From a virus: DNA of 64,000 bases. Below are positions 8,899 through 61,841 of this stretch, in pieces. The position numbers were made by a program, and so were the translations under genes. The notes under the pieces were generated by a model, which saw only the letters and a list, made by a program, of their open reading frames with translations, was not told the DNA's origin and made no database searches. Position 1 is the first letter of the stretch. The number at the start of each line of letters is the position of its first letter. Location of the stretch: positions 51,656 to 115,655 of the IMG/VR virus record IMGVR_UViG_3300027741_000030; one strand, written 5' to 3'.

Positions 8899-10095
8899 AT
8901 GAGCACAGTTCCTAATCAACACGGATTGCATTTTCCAAACTACACGGATTCTCCAGACGTGCCTAAAGACCTGTCGCTACTAGCTAAAGATATTGCAGAT
9001 CTTATTGATGCTAACCCTGGACCGCAAGGTGAAGTTGGCCCAGCAAACTCTCTTGATGTAATTGCAACAAACACAATTACAGCAGGCCTAAATGCATCTG
9101 TAACAATTTCAGGAACAGCTCCATCACAACATTTAACGTTTAACATTCCCAAAGGACAAGATGGTGTGTTAGGTGGTCCAGGACCATCAAATGTTTTAAC
9201 AATAGGAACAGTAACTTCGGGAGCAACAGCAAGCGCATCAATTACTGGAACATCTCCATCTCAAATTTTAAATTTAATTTTACCGATAGGTCCCACAGGA
9301 TCAACTGGCGCAACAGGAGCGCAAGGAGCAAAAGGAGATGCAGCAGCAACTATAGCCGTAAACTCCACTACAACAGGAGCTGCAGGAACAAGTGCATCTG
9401 TAACAAATTCTGGAACATCAAGCAATGTTTTATTAAACTTTACAATTCCAAGAGGAGCAACTGGAGCAACTGGAGCAACTGGAGCGCAGGGTCCTACTGG
9501 AGTTGATGGAGCAACTCCAAGCATAGATCCAATATCATTAAGAATTGGTCTTATGTCACCAAATACATCCTCAACTGGAGTTAACTCAAACTGGTATCCA
9601 TTTTCTACAAACTTATATTCTTTAGGAAAAGATACATCTGATGGTGGACCAGCAAGATATTGGAAAGATATTTTTTCTAATGGAACAATAAGAGCAGCAT
9701 CTGTTATTGCAACAGGAAACATGTACATAAATACATCTACAGTAGTTACATCAGATGAAAATTTAAAAAATACAATAGCTCCATCTAATCTAGGTCTTAA
9801 TTTTATTAACTTGTTAAATCCAGTAAGCTACAAGTTTAATGTTGGCGGAATAAATTATTCAGTAGATGAAGATGGCAATCAAGTTGAGACTGCAGTTCCA
9901 GGTAATAGAACTCATTATGGCCTTATAGCTCAGGAAGTTAAAGAATCTCTAGACAGTTTAAATATTGAAGATTTTGGCGGATGGGTTCAAAAAGAAGATA
10001 AAACTCAAGCTTTGAGATATGAAGAATTTATAGCGCCATTAATTAAAGCAGTACAAGAACTTTCAGCGAGAGTACAAGCTTTAGAAGAAAAGTAG
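8899..10095 (+). CDS. Collagen-like fibre with S74 intramolecular chaperone
   Basis: This 398-residue fibre protein has short Gly-X-Y collagen-like runs (GPTGSTGATGAQGAKGD near residue 132, and GATGATGATGAQGPTGVDG near 190) separated by beta-rich spacers that repeat (SVTISGTAPSQHLTFNIPKG and similar). The C-terminal domain, from about residue 280, is a peptidase S74 (endosialidase-type) chaperone. Its S285-D-x-x-x-K290 catalytic pair is followed by GLNFINLLNPVSYKF and HYGLIAQEVKESL, and a helix ends the protein. S74 domains trimerise the fibre and then cleave themselves off before the Ser, which would release about 114 residues. The start is ATG with no ribosome site, consistent with a leaderless message. 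Confidence 0.85.
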   Translation: MSTVPNQHGLHFPNYTDSPDVPKDLSLLAKDIADLIDANPGPQGEVGPANSLDVIATNTITAGLNASVTISGTAPSQHLTFNIPKGQDGVLGGPGPSNVLTIGTVTSGATASASITGTSPSQILNLILPIGPTGSTGATGAQGAKGDAAATIAVNSTTTGAAGTSASVTNSGTSSNVLLNFTIPRGATGATGATGAQGPTGVDGATPSIDPISLRIGLMSPNTSSTGVNSNWYPFSTNLYSLGKDTSDGGPARYWKDIFSNGTIRAASVIATGNMYINTSTVVTSDENLKNTIAPSNLGLNFINLLNPVSYKFNVGGINYSVDEDGNQVETAVPGNRTHYGLIAQEVKESLDSLNIEDFGGWVQKEDKTQALRYEEFIAPLIKAVQELSARVQALEEK

Positions 10096-10101
10096 GTAAA
10101 G

Positions 10102-11907
10102 ATGTCATATAAGAATGCGGTCTTAAATGATCATCCAAATTCATTTTACCTTTTAGACGAAGTAAGATCTGGAACAGTAGGATCATACTCTGGAATTATT
10201 TCTCAGTTTGCAACATATCAAGATTTAAAAGATAGCGGTATTACATATTCTGCATTAAGCGGATTACCAATTATCGACTATTCAGGAAACATAAATAATG
10301 GATATGCAATAAGCACATCAAGCAAAGAACTTATGCCATTAGTGCCAGGAAGCATAAGAGGCACACAAGTTCTTGAGCAAACAATAGTTGCATTTAGTCC
10401 AAAAGGAATAGCAACAAAATATTTTAACGATAATTCTTTTAGCATAGAGGCCTGGGCAGTTTTGCCAAGCTATGATGTAGACGCTACAATTGTCGCAGAC
10501 CCAGACCTGGGAATTGGAATATTTTATGAAAACGGAAACATAGTATTTAAAGTAGGAGATATACAGACTAGCTATACCGTATCAAATTCAAGATCAAAAT
10601 ATATTGTTGCATTATTTGAAAACAGATCTATATCCCTTTATATTGATGGTGTAATTGTTGATAAGCAACCAACCAACAATTATAAATTTACAAATGAATA
10701 TATTAATTTTATAAGCAGCACATCAGAGGAACAGCTGGTTATAGACTCTGTAGCGTTTTATAAATTTGCCCTTTCTCAATCTCAAATAAACAATCATTAT
10801 AATGAAGGCATAAAAGAAATAAAGTACTCTCAAATAGTAAATCTTGATAACGGATATTTGTTTAGCATGAATGTAGAGCCAATTAAACCAAAATTTAAAT
10901 ACTCTTATCCAGAATCAAAATCATGGAGAGAGATTTATGGAGATAATGTGTCTATAGCAGATGACGGATCATACCTTTATTTTAAAAAAACTTTAGACTC
11001 TGCAACCTCAGAATTTTCTTTTATAGATTCTTTTATTGTTCCAAATTATTTAAACTTAACAACATCTCAAATTTATTGGGAATATGATGTTGACGGAATA
11101 TCAGTAGAAGTCAGCACCAACGGATCTAACTGGCAAGAATGCCAAAATGGAAACCCATTGCCATATTTTAATAAAAATGAAAATCTGTTTTCAGATTTGC
11201 TTTATTTGAGAGTTACAATTTCATCAGCTGATACAACAAAATATTTGCCAATATTAAAAAGCTTAGAAATTTTGTTCTTTAGTTCAAAAAATTTTTACAG
11301 CGATAACTCAGGCTACTATTTATCTTCAGACTATGACTATTCACTTCCTAAAAAAAATAATAGAATTTTAGCATACGATAAAAATAATGGTTTACGCATG
11401 TACAGCGGCCATGGATTTTATTTAAATAATGTGCCCTCAATTAAAACAGTTGAAATGATATTTACTCCAAGATATTCAGAAAACGTTCTTGTTTCTGCTA
11501 CGTCAAAAATATACGAGTGGAACCAGGCTGGAACTATAACAAAGTCAGGAATTGCCTCAATATATGTAAATGGTATAGATCAAACAAACAGTACAAATAT
11601 ATGGGATTTTATATCTCCAGATTTGCCACATCATGTGGTTATAACATTTTCTTCTCAGGCCACAAATCTTAAATTTAATCAAAATCAATCAGATTCCAAG
11701 TCTGGTTTAGGACACATGTATAACAATCTTGCTATATACCCAGACGAGCTTGGGGAATATAATACATTAAATCATTATACGCTTTATACAAATAGAATAG
11801 TAAATTCAATTAACGACACCTCATTAACAATATCAGAAAGCACATCAGGTAACGATTCTACGTCTGTCAGATTGATTTTAATACAGCCAGAAGCCATAAG
11901 TATATAA
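10102..11907 (+). CDS. Lectin-like (concanavalin/LamG) tail protein
   Basis: This 601-residue protein begins YKNAVLNDHPNSFYLLDE, a motif seen at the head of LamG/concanavalin-fold phage surface proteins. Residues about 110-235 read as one LamG domain (FSIEAWAVLP, IVFKVGDIQ, SLYIDGVIVDKQ, IDSVAFYKFALSQSQINNHYNEG). Residues about 440-580 look like a second one (TVEMIFTPRY...IASIYVNGIDQ...LAIYPDELG). Such domains bind carbohydrate, so a host-surface binding role on the virion is likely. It starts 6 bases after the S74 fibre gene with a weak site (AGGTAAAG), so it is probably co-transcribed with it. Confidence 0.7.
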   Translation: MSYKNAVLNDHPNSFYLLDEVRSGTVGSYSGIISQFATYQDLKDSGITYSALSGLPIIDYSGNINNGYAISTSSKELMPLVPGSIRGTQVLEQTIVAFSPKGIATKYFNDNSFSIEAWAVLPSYDVDATIVADPDLGIGIFYENGNIVFKVGDIQTSYTVSNSRSKYIVALFENRSISLYIDGVIVDKQPTNNYKFTNEYINFISSTSEEQLVIDSVAFYKFALSQSQINNHYNEGIKEIKYSQIVNLDNGYLFSMNVEPIKPKFKYSYPESKSWREIYGDNVSIADDGSYLYFKKTLDSATSEFSFIDSFIVPNYLNLTTSQIYWEYDVDGISVEVSTNGSNWQECQNGNPLPYFNKNENLFSDLLYLRVTISSADTTKYLPILKSLEILFFSSKNFYSDNSGYYLSSDYDYSLPKKNNRILAYDKNNGLRMYSGHGFYLNNVPSIKTVEMIFTPRYSENVLVSATSKIYEWNQAGTITKSGIASIYVNGIDQTNSTNIWDFISPDLPHHVVITFSSQATNLKFNQNQSDSKSGLGHMYNNLAIYPDELGEYNTLNHYTLYTNRIVNSINDTSLTISESTSGNDSTSVRLILIQPEAISI

Positions 11908-54070: not shown

Positions 54071-55873
54071 ATGTCATTTGATTTTTCTGATTTAATTGAT
54101 ATTTTAGATGGTGAAGAGTTTGAAGAAAAGCCAGTAGACTTAAGAACATTTGTAAATGATCCAAACTATTTAGGCCTTCCTCCGCTATCTGATTATCAGT
54201 ATATATTGATAGAAAAAAGCTCTCAGATATATAAAGAGTCTACATTAAAAAAATTATTTGGAGAAGATGAGGGTGCAGTTAGGTTTAAACAAACTGCCAA
54301 TGAAGTAGTTGCTCAGCTAGGTAAAGGTTCAGGAAAAGATTACTGTTCTACAATTGCTGTGGCATACATAGTATATTTACTTCTCTGCTTAAAAGATCCA
54401 GCAACGTATTACGGTAAACCTGCTGGTGACTCTATTGATATTATTAATATTGCTATTAACTCACAGCAAGCAACCAACGTATTCTTTAAAGGGTTTAAAA
54501 GCCGAATAGACAAGTCGCCATGGTTTGTTGGTAAATATTATTCCAAGGCATCTGAAATTCAATTCAGTAAAGCTATAACAGTACACTCAGGTCACTCAGA
54601 AAGAGAAGCTTGGGAGGGATACAATGTTATTGTTGTAATCCTTGATGAAATTTCTGGATTTGCAATTGAAAATACTACTGGGCACGATCAAGCAAAAACT
54701 GGTAGTGCGGTATATGACATGTACAGGGCCTCAGTAGATTCACGTTTTCCAGACTTTGGAAAAGTAATCTTACTATCATTTCCCAGATTTAAAAATGACT
54801 ATATACAGCAAAGATATGATGCTGTTGTTGGAGAAAAAGAAACTGTAGTTAGAGAGCATAAATTTAAGATGTACGAGGAGCTACCAGATGGCACAGAAGG
54901 CAATGAGTTTGAGATACAATGGGAAGAAGATCATATTGTATCTTATAAAATACCTAAAGTATATGCTATTAAACGCCCAACTTGGGAGATTAACCCAGTT
55001 AGAAAAATTGACGATTTTAAAACAGCATTTTACACAAACCCAACCGACGCCCTTTCAAGATTTGCATGCATGCCCCCCGACGCAATTGATGCATTTTTTA
55101 AATCAAGAGAAAAAGTAGAAAAAGCTTTTAATGTTGGCGCAATTGCAGTAGATAATTTTGGAAGACTTGAAGAATGGTTCTTGCCAGACCCAGATAAAAA
55201 ATATTACATACATGTAGACTTGGCTCAAAAACATGATCATTGTGCTGTAACTATGGCACATATAAACAAATGGGTAAACGTCAAAGTCACAGACACCTAC
55301 TCTCAGCCAGCTCCAATAGTAGAAGTAGATGCTGTAAGATACTGGACACCAACTAAAGATAAGTCGGTAGATTTTACAGAAGTAAAAGACTATATTCTTT
55401 CTCTTAAGACAAGAGGATTTAATATAGCAATATGTACCTTTGACAGATGGAACTCTCATGATATGATGCAACAACTAAAACAATACGGCATCAATACAGA
55501 GATTCTGTCTGTCGCTAAAAAACATTATGATGATATGGCAATGGTTGTTGCTGAAGAAAGATTAATTGGGCCACATATACCTTTGCTTATAGACGAATTG
55601 TGCCAGCTTAGAATCATGAGAGACAAGGTGGATCACCCTAGAAAGGGTTCAAAAGATTTAGCGGATGCTACTTGTGGAGCTATATTCAATTCAATTAGTA
55701 GAACAAGATTTGATAACAATCAAGAAATTAATGTGCATACTTATGAATCAATGAGTTATGATAATGATTTTGGGTCCAAAGATGACCCAGATACAACATC
55801 TTATAATATGATCAGGGCACCAAGAATGCCCCAAGATTTAAGAGAAGCAATGGACAGGATGCAAATAATATGA
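54071..55873 (+). CDS. Terminase large subunit
   Basis: The protein has 600 residues. The ATPase part has a Walker A-like GKGSGKD (84-90), Walker B VVILDE (about 188-193, D192-E193) and the coupling motif region. The nuclease part has YYIHVDLAQKHDHCAVTM (first Asp), ICTFDRWNSHDMMQQL and KDLADATCGAIFNSI (final Asp), giving the RNase-H-like metal site of TerL. It packages concatemeric DNA into the prohead through the portal. It lies about 41 kb downstream of the portal gene, an unusual separation. The three-base gap to the previous gene implies co-translation. Confidence 0.88.
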   Translation: MSFDFSDLIDILDGEEFEEKPVDLRTFVNDPNYLGLPPLSDYQYILIEKSSQIYKESTLKKLFGEDEGAVRFKQTANEVVAQLGKGSGKDYCSTIAVAYIVYLLLCLKDPATYYGKPAGDSIDIINIAINSQQATNVFFKGFKSRIDKSPWFVGKYYSKASEIQFSKAITVHSGHSEREAWEGYNVIVVILDEISGFAIENTTGHDQAKTGSAVYDMYRASVDSRFPDFGKVILLSFPRFKNDYIQQRYDAVVGEKETVVREHKFKMYEELPDGTEGNEFEIQWEEDHIVSYKIPKVYAIKRPTWEINPVRKIDDFKTAFYTNPTDALSRFACMPPDAIDAFFKSREKVEKAFNVGAIAVDNFGRLEEWFLPDPDKKYYIHVDLAQKHDHCAVTMAHINKWVNVKVTDTYSQPAPIVEVDAVRYWTPTKDKSVDFTEVKDYILSLKTRGFNIAICTFDRWNSHDMMQQLKQYGINTEILSVAKKHYDDMAMVVAEERLIGPHIPLLIDELCQLRIMRDKVDHPRKGSKDLADATCGAIFNSISRTRFDNNQEINVHTYESMSYDNDFGSKDDPDTTSYNMIRAPRMPQDLREAMDRMQII

Positions 55874-56100
55874 GCGAATACCAAGAAAAAGCAAAAGAAT
55901 GCAAATGCTGTAGCAAGCATGTGCCCCTACCTACCGTACTAAGAGAATACTCTGGCATAGTTGTATGCCCAACAACATTTGCAAATATAGTAGAGTATAA
56001 AAGGATATGGGAATCGTATGGACAAAGACCTATGGGAAGCATTAGAAAACATTTTTCAGAATACGTACAGCAGATAGTAGAAAAAGAATTTGTTAAATGA
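55870..56100 (+). CDS. Hypothetical small Cys-rich protein
   Basis: This 76-residue protein has a C-x1-C (CKCC) near the N-terminus and a further Cys at VVCP, so a small metal site is likely. The rest is helical (RKHFSEYVQQIVEKEFVK). It overlaps TerL by four bases and the next gene by four. No family is recognised. Confidence 0.45.
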   Translation: MSEYQEKAKECKCCSKHVPLPTVLREYSGIVVCPTTFANIVEYKRIWESYGQRPMGSIRKHFSEYVQQIVEKEFVK

Positions 56101-56999
56101 ATTTAGATATATGGAAAGAGTCATCTTATCCACTAAAGAATGACATATCTGATTGGCAAAATGTTTGTAACGAGTATGGCTTTAACTCTAAAGAATTTTC
56201 TAGCTCAGCAGATTTTTTAGCTTTAGGGTGTTCTATGACATTTGGGATAGGTGTTGAAGAAAATAAAAATTGGGCAGACATAATTTCTAAAAATGCTAAT
56301 TTAAATGGACACAACCTATCAGGATGTGGGAAATCAATAATGTGGAGCATAAATAAATTTTTTTCATACGTAAACAAATTTGGTAATCCAAAATTTGTAT
56401 TTTGTTTTTTCCCAGAGTTTTATAGGATTGAAATTGCTTCAAGAGCTGATCACATGATTCCAAAATACAATCATTTCCCAAAAAATAATTTAAACGAAAA
56501 AGATATTATAAGGTACGGAGTCTGGAATAAAAATAATAATAAAAATGAATTTAAAATAAATGAATCTTTAATTGCAGAAAACGTAATCCCAAAAGAAACT
56601 TCTTTTGATATATCAATTCAATATATAAAGATGTTAGAAATGTATTGTAATTCTAACAACATAAAGTTATTTTGGACAACGTGGTCTCAAGAGGAGTCTG
56701 ATTGGCTAGATTTAAATGTACAAAATACTGAATTTAAAAATTATATATCAAGCGATATGAAAAATTGGCATTGCAGAAGTGTTGATAATATGAAAGAAAT
56801 TTTTTGTCAAAACATATCTCAATGCTCTTCAAATGACGAATGTAGTTTTGCAGATAGCTGCCATCAAGAATATTCAAATGAAAAAAATTTTTATTATCCA
56901 AGGGATGCATATACCTCACCAGCCGTACATTTTGGCTTTCATAGACAAATTCATATTGCAGAAATGTTTTTAAAATCTATTGACGTTCCTGTAGTTTAA
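56097..56999 (+). CDS. SGNH/GDSL-like hydrolase
   Basis: In this 300-residue protein, block I reads LALGCSMTFGIGVEENKNWADII, the GDSL-like motif with Ser after GC. Block III-like GNPKFVFCFFPEF and a C-terminal H-x2-G-x-H-like end (HFGFHRQIHIAEMF) complete the pattern. The motif GCSxTFG is a common variant of the GDSL nucleophile in phage-associated esterases/acyltransferases. A second, differently built SGNH protein lies at 58377. Possible substrates are O-acetyl groups on glycans; this is inference. Confidence 0.6.
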   Translation: MNLDIWKESSYPLKNDISDWQNVCNEYGFNSKEFSSSADFLALGCSMTFGIGVEENKNWADIISKNANLNGHNLSGCGKSIMWSINKFFSYVNKFGNPKFVFCFFPEFYRIEIASRADHMIPKYNHFPKNNLNEKDIIRYGVWNKNNNKNEFKINESLIAENVIPKETSFDISIQYIKMLEMYCNSNNIKLFWTTWSQEESDWLDLNVQNTEFKNYISSDMKNWHCRSVDNMKEIFCQNISQCSSNDECSFADSCHQEYSNEKNFYYPRDAYTSPAVHFGFHRQIHIAEMFLKSIDVPVV

Positions 57000-57008
57000 A
57001 TGTATAAT
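56980..57008 (+). promoter_or_regulatory. Promoter for tRNA/AhpC-AhpD operon
   Basis: TTGACG (56980-56985), a 17-base spacer and consensus TATAAT (57003-57008) lie over the end of the SGNH gene. Transcription would start about 57015, a few bases before tRNA-Met, and run through tRNA-Arg towards the peroxidase genes. Confidence 0.7.
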
Positions 57009-57018
57009 TTACTAACTG

Positions 57019-57092
57019 GCGCCAGTAGCTTAGTTGGTTAAAGCCCCGAACTCATAATTCGGTAATCGTAGGTTCGAGTCCTACCTGCCGCA
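57019..57092 (+). tRNA. tRNA with CAT anticodon (Met or lysidine-type Ile)
   Basis: The cloverleaf folds by eye: acceptor GCGCCAG with CTGCCGC (57085-57091), D-stem GCTT/AAGC, anticodon stem CCGAA/TTCGG with loop CTCATAA, T-stem GTAGG/CCTAC with loop TTCGAGT, and discriminator A. The acceptor stem has one C-C mismatch at the fourth pair. CCA is not encoded. The absence of three G-C pairs in the anticodon stem argues against an initiator tRNA. CAT could also be read as Ile2. Confidence 0.85.
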
Positions 57093-57093
57093 C

Positions 57094-57165
57094 ACCTCTG
57101 TAGCTCAGCGGAAGAGCAACAGACTTCTAATCTGTTGGTCGCTGGTTCAATTCCAGCCAGGGGTA
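57094..57165 (+). tRNA. tRNA-Arg (TCT)
   Basis: Acceptor ACCTCTG/CAGGGGT, D-stem GCTC/GAGC, anticodon stem ACAGA/TCTGT with loop CTTCTAA (anticodon TCT), T-stem GCTGG/CCAGC, and discriminator A. It reads AGA, the preferred Arg codon of most genes in this window. It begins one base after the previous tRNA, so the two are processed from one transcript. CCA is not encoded. Confidence 0.9.
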
Positions 57166-57200
57166 CGATACACCGTATCACTTATATATAAGGAGAAAAA

Positions 57201-57737
57201 ATGAAAACCGTAGGAGATAAACTCGGTAATTTTGCCGTTACTGGAGTTAAACCTGGAGCTTTGTCTTATGAAGACAGCTCTTTTGAAACAATTACGCAAG
57301 ATTCTTTTCCAGGCAAATGGAAAATTATTGCGTTTTACCCAAAGGATTTTACCTTTGTTTGCCCAACAGAAATAGTTGCGTATGATGCATTAGTTAATGA
57401 TTTTAATGACAGAGATGCAATTCTTATGACGGGTTCTGTTGATAATGAATTTTGTAAAATTGCATGGAGAAATGCACATGAAGATCTTAAGAAGACAAAC
57501 TCATGGTCATTTGCAGATACAGCACATCAACTTGCAAACGATTTAGGAGTTCATCATCCATCAGGTGTTGCTTATCGTGCAACATTTATTATAGATCCAG
57601 ATAACATTATTCAGCATGTTACATGCAATAACCTTGATGTAGGACGTAATGCTGATGAAGCCTTACGTGTATTGGATGCACTTCAAACAGGAGAGCTATG
57701 TCCATGCAATAGGCCATTAGGAGGAGAAACTCTATGA
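57201..57737 (+). CDS. ahpC: AhpC-type peroxiredoxin
   Basis: The protein has 178 residues. The peroxidatic Cys is C54 in FTFVCPTE. The C-terminus reads ELCPCNRP, with C167 and C169. This Cys-Pro-Cys tail, with three cysteines in all, is the form I know from the mycobacterial AhpC, whose partner is AhpD. The enzyme reduces hydroperoxides and peroxynitrite, and the fold is otherwise full length. The gene has a clear ribosome site (AAGGAG), follows two tRNA genes from a promoter at 56980, and overlaps the AhpD-like gene by four bases. Phages rarely carry this pair; all catalytic positions are kept, so activity is likely. Confidence 0.88.
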   Translation: MKTVGDKLGNFAVTGVKPGALSYEDSSFETITQDSFPGKWKIIAFYPKDFTFVCPTEIVAYDALVNDFNDRDAILMTGSVDNEFCKIAWRNAHEDLKKTNSWSFADTAHQLANDLGVHHPSGVAYRATFIIDPDNIIQHVTCNNLDVGRNADEALRVLDALQTGELCPCNRPLGGETL

Positions 57738-58249
57738 CAAATTGGGTTACTCAACTTCAAGAATCTATTCCAGAATTTGCAAAAGACATTAAGCTTAATT
57801 TAGATGCAGTAATAAATAGATCAGAAATTGATCCAGAATATGCATTACATATTGCAATAGCATCAGCATTTGCTACTGGAAATTCAAAGCTACTAGCTTT
57901 TTTGGTTGCTAATTCAAATGATGAATTGGAAAAAAATGCAGCACTTGGAGCAGGTGCTGTCATGGCTCAAAACAACGTTTGGTATCCATATTCAAGAAAA
58001 TCACATAACGAAGAATTTAGACAAGTTAATGGTCAGCTTAGAATGAATATAATTGGAACCCATGGCGGAACTACAAAAGCTAAATTTGAATCATATGCAT
58101 TAGCAGCATCAATAATTGGTAAATGTGATTATTGTGTTTCTGGGCATTTTGATCTTCTTAAAAATGAAGGTTACACCAATGAACAGTTGCGTGATATTGG
58201 AAGAATTGCAGCAACAATTAATGCATTAGCAAAAATACTTAACGCATAA
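57734..58249 (+). CDS. ahpD: AhpD-type alkylhydroperoxidase/reductase
   Basis: In this 171-residue all-helical protein, the redox motif is K-C131-D-Y-C134-V-S-G-H138, with E119 upstream. This reproduces the Glu...Cys-x-x-Cys...His relay of AhpD (in the mycobacterial enzyme about E118, C130, C133, H137). AhpD recycles oxidised AhpC with electrons from a lipoyl protein such as dihydrolipoamide succinyltransferase. It starts by ATGA overlap with ahpC, so equal expression is expected. An electron donor is not encoded nearby, so the phage would use the host's. Confidence 0.87.
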   Translation: MTNWVTQLQESIPEFAKDIKLNLDAVINRSEIDPEYALHIAIASAFATGNSKLLAFLVANSNDELEKNAALGAGAVMAQNNVWYPYSRKSHNEEFRQVNGQLRMNIIGTHGGTTKAKFESYALAASIIGKCDYCVSGHFDLLKNEGYTNEQLRDIGRIAATINALAKILNA

Positions 58250-58283
58250 AAAAACTCCTTGGCAAGAGAATAAACTGCCATAC

Positions 58284-58356
58284 GTTCCTATAGCTCAGCT
58301 GGTAGAGCAGCAGACTTTTAATCTGCGGGTCGATGGTTCGATACCATCTGGGGACA
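58284..58356 (+). tRNA. tRNA-Lys (TTT)
   Basis: Acceptor GTTCCTA/TGGGGAC (with G-T wobbles), D-stem GCTC/GAGC, anticodon stem GCAGA/TCTGC with loop CTTTTAA (anticodon TTT), T-stem GATGG/CCATC with loop TTCGATA, and discriminator A. It reads AAA, the main Lys codon here. It lies after ahpD and is probably transcribed with it. Confidence 0.9.
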
Positions 58357-58360
58357 CATA

Positions 58361-58369
58361 TGATAGAAT
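58361..58369 (+). promoter_or_regulatory. Extended -10 promoter, likely leaderless
   Basis: TGATAGAAT (58361-58369) ends seven bases before the ATG at 58377 and directly follows tRNA-Lys. No clear -35 is visible and no ribosome site precedes the ATG. Confidence 0.4.
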
Positions 58370-58376
58370 ATAAGTT

Positions 58377-59132
58377 ATGACTAGAAAAATATTAATAATT
58401 GGAGATTCTCATTCGGCTAAACTTTCATTTGGCCTTAATAATTTTTTACAAAAAAATGAATCAAATGACACTAGGCAAGAATCTGATCATCAATACAGAA
58501 CAAAGTATATAGATAAACTTGGAAATAGTGTGTGGATGGAAGACTCTCTTGTAACTTATAAAAATGAATCTTTAAATTTTTATATATCTTGTCACCCAGG
58601 AAGATCTGCTTTACATTTTGATTTTGAAAATTTTGCAAGCGGAACTCAAAAAGAAATTTTAAGCGATTGGAATGAAGAGGGCAAAATAATAATGCCGTGG
58701 TTTGGGTATATAGATATAAGAAATTGGTTGCCGCAAACAGATTTAAAAAATTATGTTAATGTTTCAGGTGTTATCTCTAGATATATTGATAATGCTTTGG
58801 CTAAATTTAACAAAGCTAGGATTATATTTATTGAACCTATGCCTCAATTTATATGTATAGTTACAAGCAAATTTAGATTTTTTCATACAGATCCAGCTAT
58901 AGAGTTTGAAGATAGGCATGAGTTTCATTTAATGTTTGTAGAAGAGTTAAAAAAGCAGTGTTTAGAAAGAGGCCTTGATACCCCAGTAAACATAAGAGAA
59001 ATTTTGGGTACAGACATGATAGAGCCATGGATGCAGCCTAAAAAACCAATTAATTACCTATTAAATGATCATTTATTGCCAGAACATTACACAAAAATTT
59101 TAAAATATATATATGAAAATGTTGGAGTATAG
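58377..59132 (+). CDS. SGNH-hydrolase-like protein
   Basis: In this 251-residue protein, block I IIGDSHSA (nucleophile Ser in GDSH), block II/III PWFGYIDIRNW and a terminal NDHLLPEHYTKIL (Asp and His of block V) form the SGNH catalytic triad. The GDSH form is typical of sialate/acetyl-esterase-like relatives and of glycan O-acetyl modifiers. No signal peptide is present, so it acts in the cytoplasm or on nucleotide-sugar-derived glycans. It sits between the antioxidant genes and is preceded by a likely leaderless promoter. Confidence 0.65.
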   Translation: MTRKILIIGDSHSAKLSFGLNNFLQKNESNDTRQESDHQYRTKYIDKLGNSVWMEDSLVTYKNESLNFYISCHPGRSALHFDFENFASGTQKEILSDWNEEGKIIMPWFGYIDIRNWLPQTDLKNYVNVSGVISRYIDNALAKFNKARIIFIEPMPQFICIVTSKFRFFHTDPAIEFEDRHEFHLMFVEELKKQCLERGLDTPVNIREILGTDMIEPWMQPKKPINYLLNDHLLPEHYTKILKYIYENVGV

Positions 59133-59158
59133 ACCATAAATCACAAAAATGGTATACT
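59130..59158 (+). promoter_or_regulatory. Extended -10 promoter for dps, leaderless spacing
   Basis: TAGACC (59130-59135), a 17-base spacer and TGGTATACT (59150-59158) precede the ATG at 59165 by six bases. No ribosome site is seen before dps, so the message should be leaderless. Confidence 0.6.
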
Positions 59159-59164
59159 GAGATT

Positions 59165-59614
59165 ATGGATACAATAATTAGTTTATTAAAAAAATGGCAA
59201 GCAAATTCAGTTGTGCTTTATTCAACAGCACACGGGTTTCATTGGAACGTAGAGGGACCACTATTTACTCAGTATCACGCATTTTTTGAAAAAATATATA
59301 CAGATATATATGAAACTGTAGATACAATTTCAGAATTTTTAAGAAAATATGATGTACAAGCGCCTTATACTCTTCAAGAATTTATTCAAAATAATACCTA
59401 CGGAGATGTACAGATGGATAGCAATTCTCCAATTGCTATGTCAAAACAACTTTTATCTATGATTGAATACATGATTCAAGATGTTAAGATTTTGTTTGAC
59501 GAAGCAACCTTACAAAAAGAACAAGGATTGGCTAATTTTTTAGCAGATAGACAAGATCAACTTCAGTTCCACGCTTGGTGGTTGAGATCTTCGCTAAAAC
59601 AAACAGTAAACTAA
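59165..59614 (+). CDS. dps: Dps-like ferritin (DNA-protection protein)
   Basis: In this 149-residue four-helix protein, the Dps signature is present: FHWNVEGPLFTQYHAFFEKIYTD, then ETVDTISEFLRKY, containing the His, Asp and Glu ligands of the inter-subunit ferroxidase site. The protein is at the short end of the family. Dps cages oxidise Fe(II) with hydrogen peroxide and bind DNA, so this gene reinforces the peroxide-defence reading of the ahpC-ahpD pair. It has a leaderless-type promoter of its own and is directly coupled to the SDR gene (stop/start overlap). Confidence 0.85.
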   Translation: MDTIISLLKKWQANSVVLYSTAHGFHWNVEGPLFTQYHAFFEKIYTDIYETVDTISEFLRKYDVQAPYTLQEFIQNNTYGDVQMDSNSPIAMSKQLLSMIEYMIQDVKILFDEATLQKEQGLANFLADRQDQLQFHAWWLRSSLKQTVN

Positions 59615-60291
59615 TGAAAGATATTGTTGTAGTGACTGGTGCTTCTCGTGGAATTGGTAGAGCAACTTCAATACTACTTGCAGAAAACGGATACCATGTA
59701 ATTGCAATTGCAAGAAATAAAAAAAGTCTTGAAGCAATTCAAAATGATAATATAGAAGTTCATGTTGTAGATATAACAGAAAAAGATCAAGTTTATAATT
59801 TTTGTCAAAAACTTATTGGAAAAAATGTAGTAGCATTAATAAATAATGCAGGTGGAAAAGTTGGTTTTTCTGATAATATATTAGATGATGATATAGAAAA
59901 TTGGTCAAAATCATTTGATTTAAATGTAACATCTGTTGCAAACATAACAAAACAAATTGTTCCAATTATGGAAAATAATGGCGGAGGAAATGTTGTTGTT
60001 GTAACAGCAATGCAAGGTCATTTTGCTTATAAAGGTGGAAGTCTTTATAATGTTGCAAAACATGCAGAGGTGACGCTTACTGAAATTTTAAGATTTCAGC
60101 TATGCAACAAAAATATTAGAGTTACTGAAGTAGTACCTGGGCGTACTGAAAGTTATGATCATAAAGATGGGTCAAAGAACACATTAAGGCCAGAAGATGT
60201 AGCTGAATCAATTAGGTGGTCCATAATGGCACCAAAACATGTTAATATAGAAAAAATATATATATCACATGTTAATCCAGTTAAAAAATAG
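59614..60291 (+). CDS. Short-chain dehydrogenase/reductase
   Basis: This is a 225-residue protein from ATG 59614, which overlaps the dps stop; a longer in-frame reading would start inside dps. It has the Rossmann motif VVTGASRGIGRA (about 6-17), NNAG (about 77-80), a Ser-containing strand, and the catalytic Y-x3-K in YNVAKHAEV (about 147-155). The substrate cannot be read. It sits between Dps and the lysin gene. As an NAD(P)H enzyme it may act in redox or glycan metabolism. Confidence 0.8.
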   Translation: MKDIVVVTGASRGIGRATSILLAENGYHVIAIARNKKSLEAIQNDNIEVHVVDITEKDQVYNFCQKLIGKNVVALINNAGGKVGFSDNILDDDIENWSKSFDLNVTSVANITKQIVPIMENNGGGNVVVVTAMQGHFAYKGGSLYNVAKHAEVTLTEILRFQLCNKNIRVTEVVPGRTESYDHKDGSKNTLRPEDVAESIRWSIMAPKHVNIEKIYISHVNPVKK

Positions 60292-60301
60292 GAGAAATAA
60301 A

Positions 60302-60826
60302 ATGGCAGAAGAAACAAGACATCCAAATGCAGTAAAAGTTTTAGCAGCAGCAAAAAAGTATGCTGATGAAAAATATGTAGAGGGCCCAAATAACGATACA
60401 ATTTTTGGTAAACGTTATGGAATGAATAATCAACCTTGGTGTGCAATGTTTGTATCAGGTTGTTTTGATGATGCAGGATTAGTTCACCTAGTTGCTGCTT
60501 CAACAAAAAGGGGTTTTGCATCATGTGATGCAGGAGCACAATGGTTTGCTAAGAACAAAAGAATTGTTCCAATTGGGCAAGCACAGCCAGGAGACATCGT
60601 ATTTTTTAACTTTGACAAGAACCCAACAGACACAGAGCATGTTGGAATTGTTTACTCAAATGATGGAAAAAACCTAATTACTTTTGAAGGAAATACTAGC
60701 GGTGATGCAAAAGGATCTCAAGCAAATGGAGACGGTGTTTTTAAAAAGAAGAGAGCTTACAGTCTTGTAATGGCAGTTGCACGTCCAGATTGGGATGCAC
60801 CAGCACCAGTAAAGAAGGCTAAGTAA
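60302..60826 (+). CDS. CHAP-domain endolysin
   Basis: This is a 174-residue protein from ATG 60302 with the ribosome site TAGGAGA; an upstream in-frame start at 60269 would overlap the SDR gene. The catalytic Cys is in QPWCAMFVSGCF, and the His and third residue are in GDIVFFNFD and TEHVGIVYS (PGD and EHVG motifs), as in NlpC/CHAP amidase-endopeptidases. The C-terminus is Lys/Pro-rich, possibly for wall binding. No signal peptide is seen, so export would need a holin (not identified with confidence nearby). It probably cleaves peptidoglycan at lysis. Confidence 0.8.
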   Translation: MAEETRHPNAVKVLAAAKKYADEKYVEGPNNDTIFGKRYGMNNQPWCAMFVSGCFDDAGLVHLVAASTKRGFASCDAGAQWFAKNKRIVPIGQAQPGDIVFFNFDKNPTDTEHVGIVYSNDGKNLITFEGNTSGDAKGSQANGDGVFKKKRAYSLVMAVARPDWDAPAPVKKAK

Positions 60827-60828
60827 TT

Positions 60829-61353
60829 ATGAAAAAGCTGGGACTAACAATAATTGGATTATCAATAGTCCTATTAACATTTCAAGCAAGTGCAGCAACA
60901 CCAGATTGGGTAGTTCAGGATAAAAAAGTTACTCCTGGAGCTATTAATAAAGATGTTACACAAGCAAACATTGCTACAACTGTTTGTAAAGTCGGATGGA
61001 CAAAAACAATTCGTCCAACTGTTACTTATACAAACAAGTTAAAGGATACTCAGCTAGCAACAACATATAAATCATATGTTGCAATTTGGGGCTCAAAACC
61101 ATCTGCATATGAAGAGGATCATTTAATTTCTCTTCAGCTTGGCGGACATCCATCAGACCCTAAAAATCTATGGCCAGAGCCATATGCAGGAATTGGTGCA
61201 AGAAAGAAAGATGTTACCGAGACCGCATTAAAGCGTTTGGTATGTGATGGAACAATGAAATTGGTTGATGCTCAAAAAGCAATTTTAGATTGGCCTACAG
61301 CCTATAAGAAATATGTAAAGCCAACAGATCAGCCAGACACTTCCGATAACTGA
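60829..61353 (+). CDS. Secreted HNH-type nuclease
   Basis: The protein has 174 residues. Residues 1-22 are a signal peptide (positive KKLGLT, hydrophobic IIGLSIVLLTF, then cut after ASA-A). The mature domain ends with a beta-beta-alpha metal motif: YEEDHLISLQLGGHPSDPKN, then LWPEP, in which E-D-H and the Asn-Leu-Trp-Pro are the core of HNH/His-Me-finger nucleases of this secreted type. It should degrade DNA or RNA outside the cytoplasm. It follows the lysin by two bases, so it is co-expressed late. Two Cys (C53, C149) may form a disulfide. Confidence 0.72.
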   Translation: MKKLGLTIIGLSIVLLTFQASAATPDWVVQDKKVTPGAINKDVTQANIATTVCKVGWTKTIRPTVTYTNKLKDTQLATTYKSYVAIWGSKPSAYEEDHLISLQLGGHPSDPKNLWPEPYAGIGARKKDVTETALKRLVCDGTMKLVDAQKAILDWPTAYKKYVKPTDQPDTSDN

Positions 61354-61424: not shown

Positions 61425-61841
61425 ATGGTAACAAATTTCGCTATGGATCTTTTTAAAGATCCATTTTTTATTGGTTTCAACCGAGAGTTGGAGCGATTTA
61501 ATAGTTTAAGTAAAGTAAATAATACAGCATTTCCGCCGTATGATTTATTGAAATTAGATGAAGACAACTACCAGCTATCGCTGGCTGTTGCTGGATTCAC
61601 AAGAGAAGATTTAACTGTATCAATTGAGGACGGAAGTCTATGGATTACAGGTGAAATTAAAGAGGTAGTAGATGCCGAAGTTGTTCATAAGGGCATTGCT
61701 GCACGTAAGTTTACAAGAATCTTTGAATTAAGTGAATACATGGAAGTTTCAAATGTAGAGCTAAAAGACGGCATGCTTCATATCCGTGTAGTTAGAAATC
61801 TACCTAAAGAAAAACAACCTAAAATTCTGAAAATTAAATAA
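61425..61841 (+). CDS. Small heat-shock protein, Hsp20 (IbpA-like)
   Basis: The protein has 138 residues. The alpha-crystallin domain runs from about 35 to 125 (YDLLKLDEDNYQLSLAVAGF, LTVSIEDGSLWITGEI, HKGIAARKFTRIFELSEYMEV and LKDGMLHIRVVRNLP), with the usual A-G-F and C-terminal I-L-K-I (I-x-I) tail. It holds denatured proteins in a refoldable state, for phage assembly or host stress. Phage Hsp20 genes of this type are frequent in environmental phages. It has its own promoter and inverted repeat, so separate regulation is likely. Confidence 0.88.
   Translation: MVTNFAMDLFKDPFFIGFNRELERFNSLSKVNNTAFPPYDLLKLDEDNYQLSLAVAGFTREDLTVSIEDGSLWITGEIKEVVDAEVVHKGIAARKFTRIFELSEYMEVSNVELKDGMLHIRVVRNLPKEKQPKILKIK

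Follow-up and report, generated by a model that had tools for sequence, protein, structure and literature searches.

In Mycobacterium tuberculosis, AhpD is a link to lipoylated complexes. The AhpC-AhpD pair of this organism (PDB: 2bmx and 1knc/1gu9) shares its plan with the phage pair described here, in that AhpC is followed by AhpD on one strand, AhpC has a peroxidatic cysteine and a CxC tail, and AhpD has an E-x11-C-x2-C-x3-H centre within an AhpD fold (TM 0.90). Unlike those of M. tuberculosis, the phage genes overlap and sit inside a tRNA operon, phage Y133 stands where M. tuberculosis AhpD has H132, and identity to the M. tuberculosis proteins is approximately 46% for AhpC (by structural alignment) and 35-38% for AhpD. 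Among the matches listed, the closest clearly cellular relatives are pairs of a betaproteobacterial/Mycobacteriales type (for example Rivibacter, Cupriavidus, Bordetella and G370), with AhpC 61-66% and AhpD 41-54% identical to the phage proteins. In these pairs, too, the genes stand in tandem on the same strand, less than 300 bp apart, but the phage pairs form one clade apart from them.

Phage genes for defence against reactive oxygen species (ROS) are an established kind. In the Rimov reservoir they were reported in more than 10% of freshwater phages, many of them predicted actinophages, where they probably shield the infected cell from ROS as we propose here; the main text of that study names ferritin, SOD, glutathione peroxidase, thioredoxin and glutaredoxin, and contains neither "Ahp" nor "hydroperoxid" (Kavagutti 2019, PMC6802176). 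A virus-assigned ahpC, comparable to ours, is listed among Microcystis-virus genes, in a different host group and in a passage that mentions neither AhpD nor a pair (PMC12542629). We found no report of a complete phage AhpC-AhpD pair in a search of CC-licensed PMC full text, and such a pair is thus unreported in the literature searched.

The window, the 64 kb of DNA analysed here, is the right-hand part of a 115,655-base IMG/VR record. The features considered below are as follows, all on the plus strand.

56980..57008, plus: near-consensus sigma-70 promoter, TTGACG-17-TATAAT, 11/12 matches, 10 nt upstream of tRNA-Met
57019..57093, plus: tRNA-Met (CAT), from ARAGORN
57094..57166, plus: tRNA-Arg (TCT), from ARAGORN
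57168..58280, plus: accessory insert between tRNA-Arg and tRNA-Lys, with ahpC-ahpD and its own ribosome-binding leader
57201..57737, plus: ahpC, 178-aa 2-Cys peroxiredoxin with C54 and C167-P-C169
57734..58249, plus: ahpD, 171 aa, with E119, C131-x2-C134 and H138, in a 4-nt ATGA overlap with ahpC
58284..58357, plus: tRNA-Lys (TTT), from ARAGORN, closing the insert site
58377..59132, plus: SGNH-hydrolase-like gene, 251 aa, weak Pfam SGNH match below the cut-off, outside the redox unit
59165..59614, plus: Dps-like ferritin, Pfam Ferritin 4.8e-17, PHROG 3636, with H26, H38, D53 and E57

The first of the paired proteins matches the Pfam AhpC-TSA family (1.8e-23), and its top match in a PDB sequence search is M. 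tuberculosis AhpC (2bmx, E 4e-46). The AlphaFold model (pLDDT 83) has a peroxiredoxin fold and is nearest to the same structure, with a TM of 0.84; for both AhpC and AhpD, the input alignments for modelling were made of phage and bacterial relatives. The peroxidatic PxxxTxxC motif, P47-K-D-F-T51-F-V-C54-P-T-E, is invariant in 75 of 75 distinct pairs, as are both cysteines of the resolving tail, C167-P-C169, and a further cysteine, C85. The protein scores 119 bits against the NCBIfam equivalog model TIGR03137, for which the cut-off is 272; on homology and predicted fold we therefore file it as AhpC-type and not as a TIGR03137 equivalog.

For the second protein, the sole matches in the PDB sequence search are the M. 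tuberculosis AhpD entries (3e-24), and the AlphaFold model (pLDDT 95) takes the full-length AhpD fold, superposing on 1knc with an rmsd of 1.4 Å. The AhpD model TIGR00777 matches at 2.8e-32 with a score of 111.9, below its cut-off of 191.95, which three bacterial AhpD loci also miss, and the core-domain model TIGR00778 matches at 33.5, above its cut-off of 27.8. The four residues of the E-x11-C-x2-C-x3-H centre (E119, C131, C134 and H138) are invariant in all 75 distinct pairs, and Y133, between the two cysteines, aligns with M. tuberculosis H132.

The preliminary description of this DNA had recognised an AhpC with C54 and a C-P-C tail, an ATGA-coupled AhpD with E119, C131-x2-C134 and H138, and a Dps with ferroxidase ligands, and the coordinates, the overlap and all of these residues agree with our analysis, in which the Dps pattern H-x11-H-x14-D-x3-E is correctly spaced at H26, H38, D53 and E57. 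Its further proposal that the three genes form an AhpC-AhpD-Dps cassette does not hold. The genes are not contiguous, with tRNA-Lys and the SGNH-like gene lying between AhpD and Dps, and the three are not conserved together in other phages: of 74 further distinct pairs, just 11 have a Dps homologue nearby, which may lie on either side, its offset from the end of AhpD shifting between roughly -1.7 and +3.2 kb, and we reject the triplet on these grounds. Four of those Dps copies, downstream of AhpD in L052, L057, L058 and L078, are conserved Dps-like ferritin paralogues that have lost the H/H/D/E ferroxidase ligands. Dps is a neighbour of the pair and not a conserved third member of the unit.

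The pair itself is a real unit, complete and under purifying selection, with a median dN/dS of 0.054 for AhpC and 0.067 for AhpD. The most frequent ahpC/ahpD junction among phage pairs is the 4-nt overlap. Across 80 loci selected by their large terminase gene (TerL), six hold both genes and none holds one without the other. In 122 of 123 bacterial loci with both genes, ahpC and ahpD share a strand and follow each other in tandem within 300 bp; the phage pair thus retains the cellular arrangement in compacted form. Where at least 4 kb of downstream sequence was available at TerL-chosen loci (n = 34), the pair was present in 5, a lower bound as it may lie farther off in some, and absent nearby in 29. 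Given this absence near most close TerL relatives, the pair is dispensable, an accessory element. The preliminary description had called phage-borne pairs rare, which is true of deposited genomes and not of uncultured ones: in 50,697 deposited phage records AhpD has no match and all AhpC matches are below 60% identity, whereas in IMG/VR at least 595 stretches match AhpD and at least 587 match AhpC, before dereplication. The pair is therefore frequent among uncultured phages, and deposited ones show no instance of it.

The insert is 1.1 kb long and has precise boundaries between tRNA-Arg and tRNA-Lys. An empty site is seen in L405, a relative with 94% identical TerL, where tRNA-Met, tRNA-Arg and tRNA-Lys adjoin directly. 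In another relative, L395, the pair instead follows tRNA-Lys, and its ribosome-binding leader, TTATATATAAGGAG, is the same as that in the window; given this shared leader at a different position, the insert seems to carry its own leader and no promoter. In 60 of 72 pairs the 500 bp upstream of AhpC contain a tRNA gene, as compared with about 0.16 per interval expected from overall tRNA density. Being within the tRNA operon, the pair is probably transcribed from the near-consensus sigma-70 promoter that precedes tRNA-Met downstream of TerL. This promoter is conserved across the phage group with or without the Ahp pair, and is found in the same place with 11-12 of 12 matches in 80 of 93 distinct upstream regions (shuffles, approximately 0.2 expected), a figure that measures conservation and not 80 independent events, as the regions are related by descent. 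Such a promoter could be recognised by unmodified host RNA polymerase.

The pair most likely serves peroxide defence, with electrons supplied by way of lipoyl groups. As expected from its family and its invariant residues, AhpC would reduce H2O2 or organic peroxides through C54, which would then form a disulfide with C167/C169. C131 and C134 of AhpD would reduce AhpC, with E119 and H138 as a proton relay. AhpD in turn, if it behaves as in M. tuberculosis, would be re-reduced through lipoamide dehydrogenase by dihydrolipoyl groups on the E2 component of host 2-oxoacid dehydrogenases. The outcome would be less peroxide in the infected cell, protecting replicating DNA, the phage ribonucleotide reductase and the burst. 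No phage-carried lipoyl donor was found, as none of 14 long phage records has a lipoyl domain; a lipoyl donor for AhpD would therefore need to be supplied by the host. E2-family matches are present in 372 of 398 sampled Actinomycetota genomes. We consider it probable that ahpC-ahpD serves a large group of aquatic actinophages as an accessory module for peroxide defence and draws electrons from lipoylated 2-oxoacid dehydrogenases of the host. Two observations weigh against this reading, namely the Y133 of phage AhpD in place of M. tuberculosis H132 and the dispensability of the pair.

The main rival donor is a thioredoxin of the phage itself, which could be the real reductant of AhpC. A canonical WCGPC thioredoxin is encoded on the window's contig and in 13 of 14 long records, and Streptomyces phage BillNye has a thioredoxin and no such pair near TerL. 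AhpD would then be auxiliary, or a stand-alone peroxidase or disulfide reductase, and the role of the pair would still be peroxide defence. Against this, AhpC never occurs without AhpD in the 80 TerL-selected loci, AhpD keeps every residue of its catalytic centre, and the thioredoxin belongs to the group's core genes and is unlinked to the pair. We regard this alternative as unlikely, though it deserves to be taken seriously.

Environmental peroxide might also not be the target. The known link of M. tuberculosis AhpD to lipoylated complexes and the host-type promoter of the operon would suit a pair that taps the lipoyl-E2/NADH pool as an electron sink, altering host central metabolism. Alternatively, tapping this pool may serve to blunt an anti-phage or grazer response that generates ROS, in keeping with a published hypothesis in which phage ROS genes help infected cells to survive in protist phagosomes (PMC6802176). 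The chemistry in either case still needs peroxide as the acceptor, and we consider both versions improbable. That the pair is host DNA joined to phage by misassembly, or a decaying host gene pair, is hardly credible: the window comes from one metagenomic contig, which is classed as linear and lacks end repeats, but an independent contig (L002) covers 54363-61146 at 99.6%, several further contigs are collinear at 83-84% over tRNA-ahpC-ahpD-tRNA-SGNH, and the active sites are invariant, dN/dS is low and the clade is virus-specific.

As these contigs span the segment independently, a host chimera is excluded, and the earlier reading of the DNA as phage is upheld, with hundreds of relatives in IMG/VR. 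The Streptomyces phage terminases at the top of the match list, that of BillNye (Stanwilliamsviridae) among them, share 60-64% identity with TerL, and the gene order (TerL, portal, capsid, tail, helicase, primase, DnaE) is that of BillNye. A WhiB gene is found on the window's contig and in 14 of 17 other long pair-bearing records (15/18 in all); in 14 control genomes WhiB had a match in Corynebacterium only. On terminase similarity, gene order and gene content, these viruses are actinophages related to Stanwilliamsviridae.

Several other genes of these phages deserve mention. Outside the window, its phage contig encodes a 498-aa homologue of flavin-dependent tryptophan halogenases (G000:C1:34078-35574, equivalent to L149:14078-15571; PF04820, 7e-103), which is absent from 13 further long records of this group, and three sulfotransferase-like ORFs lie in a row at L149:11247-13078. 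Two luciferase-like monooxygenase ORFs, the second adjoined by an APS-kinase-like ORF, were observed at L148:7244-8044, 9305-10066 and 10066-10824. Within the window, an HSP20 homologue (61425-61841) is up to 96-99% identical at the protein level among many relatives and variable in position, and a repeat-coding ORF of QPQVA units occupies a minus frame at the contig end (63745-63990).

The phage AhpC proteins form one clade (support 98/87), as do the phage AhpD proteins (SH-aLRT 98 in a quick tree). Betaproteobacterial pairs, together with some actinobacterial ones, come next beyond the phage clade, and M. tuberculosis AhpC and AhpD fall in a separate actinobacterial clade in which the phage proteins are not nested. 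The preliminary description had treated the genes as an actinobacterial pair; this stands for the probable host phylum but not for the lineage of the proteins, which have their own virus clade beside a mixed betaproteobacterial/actinobacterial type and outside the M. tuberculosis type. Recent acquisition from a sampled host is unsupported, given this separate clade and the identity of at most 54% to the closest clearly cellular AhpD among the matches listed. The cellular matches come from a bacterial genome scan with an alignment query, for which the best 80 matches, mostly Betaproteobacteria, were listed; a single-sequence AhpD query of the genome contigs gave no match, where the alignment query did. 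The sole near neighbour of the phage clade found was L156, a 5.9-kb contig binned as Bacteroidota, in which two unidentified ORFs of approximately 250 aa lie between the related AhpC and AhpD. L156 has seven tRNA genes, which argues that it is probably viral too and thus probably a misbinned virus.

Within a sample of 398 Actinomycetota genomes, AhpD was found in none of the 26 small ones (1.6 Mb or less), and one of these 26 has a phage-like AhpC and no AhpD. Judged from these 26, the data suggest that streamlined hosts may lack AhpD. L334 was considered as a host lead on account of its 1.2-Mb genome, an AhpC at 62-63% and no AhpD, a case weakened by the presence of genomes of up to 6.8 Mb in the same order. 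Two papers describe the peroxide biology of acI bacteria (PMC7527133, PMC8353197). They cite Kim 2019 for axenic cultures of the acI member 'Ca. Planktophila' that required added catalase and for one acI KatG that did not function as a catalase, and peroxide removal limits the growth of some acI-type bacteria. An acI host for the pair-bearing phages is an attractive guess; the published acI 16S probe had no exact match in the 398 Actinomycetota genomes.

We tentatively put forward a broader possibility, more doubtful than the peroxide-defence reading itself, in which the ahpC-ahpD insert of phage tRNA operons, mobile and lacking a promoter, would be the first known case of a phage module connected to the lipoylated 2-oxoacid dehydrogenase complexes of a host, giving streamlined, AhpD-lacking Actinobacteria a heme-free peroxidase that they otherwise lack. 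At least some abundant freshwater Actinobacteria are known to be vulnerable to peroxide, and if the phages infect such hosts, they would deliver a complete heme-free peroxidase together with its recycling partner. If true, the proposed phage-mediated ROS defence would become directly testable through a module of two defined genes with a specified electron source, and the pair would provide a case of phage metabolism plugged into lipoylated complexes.
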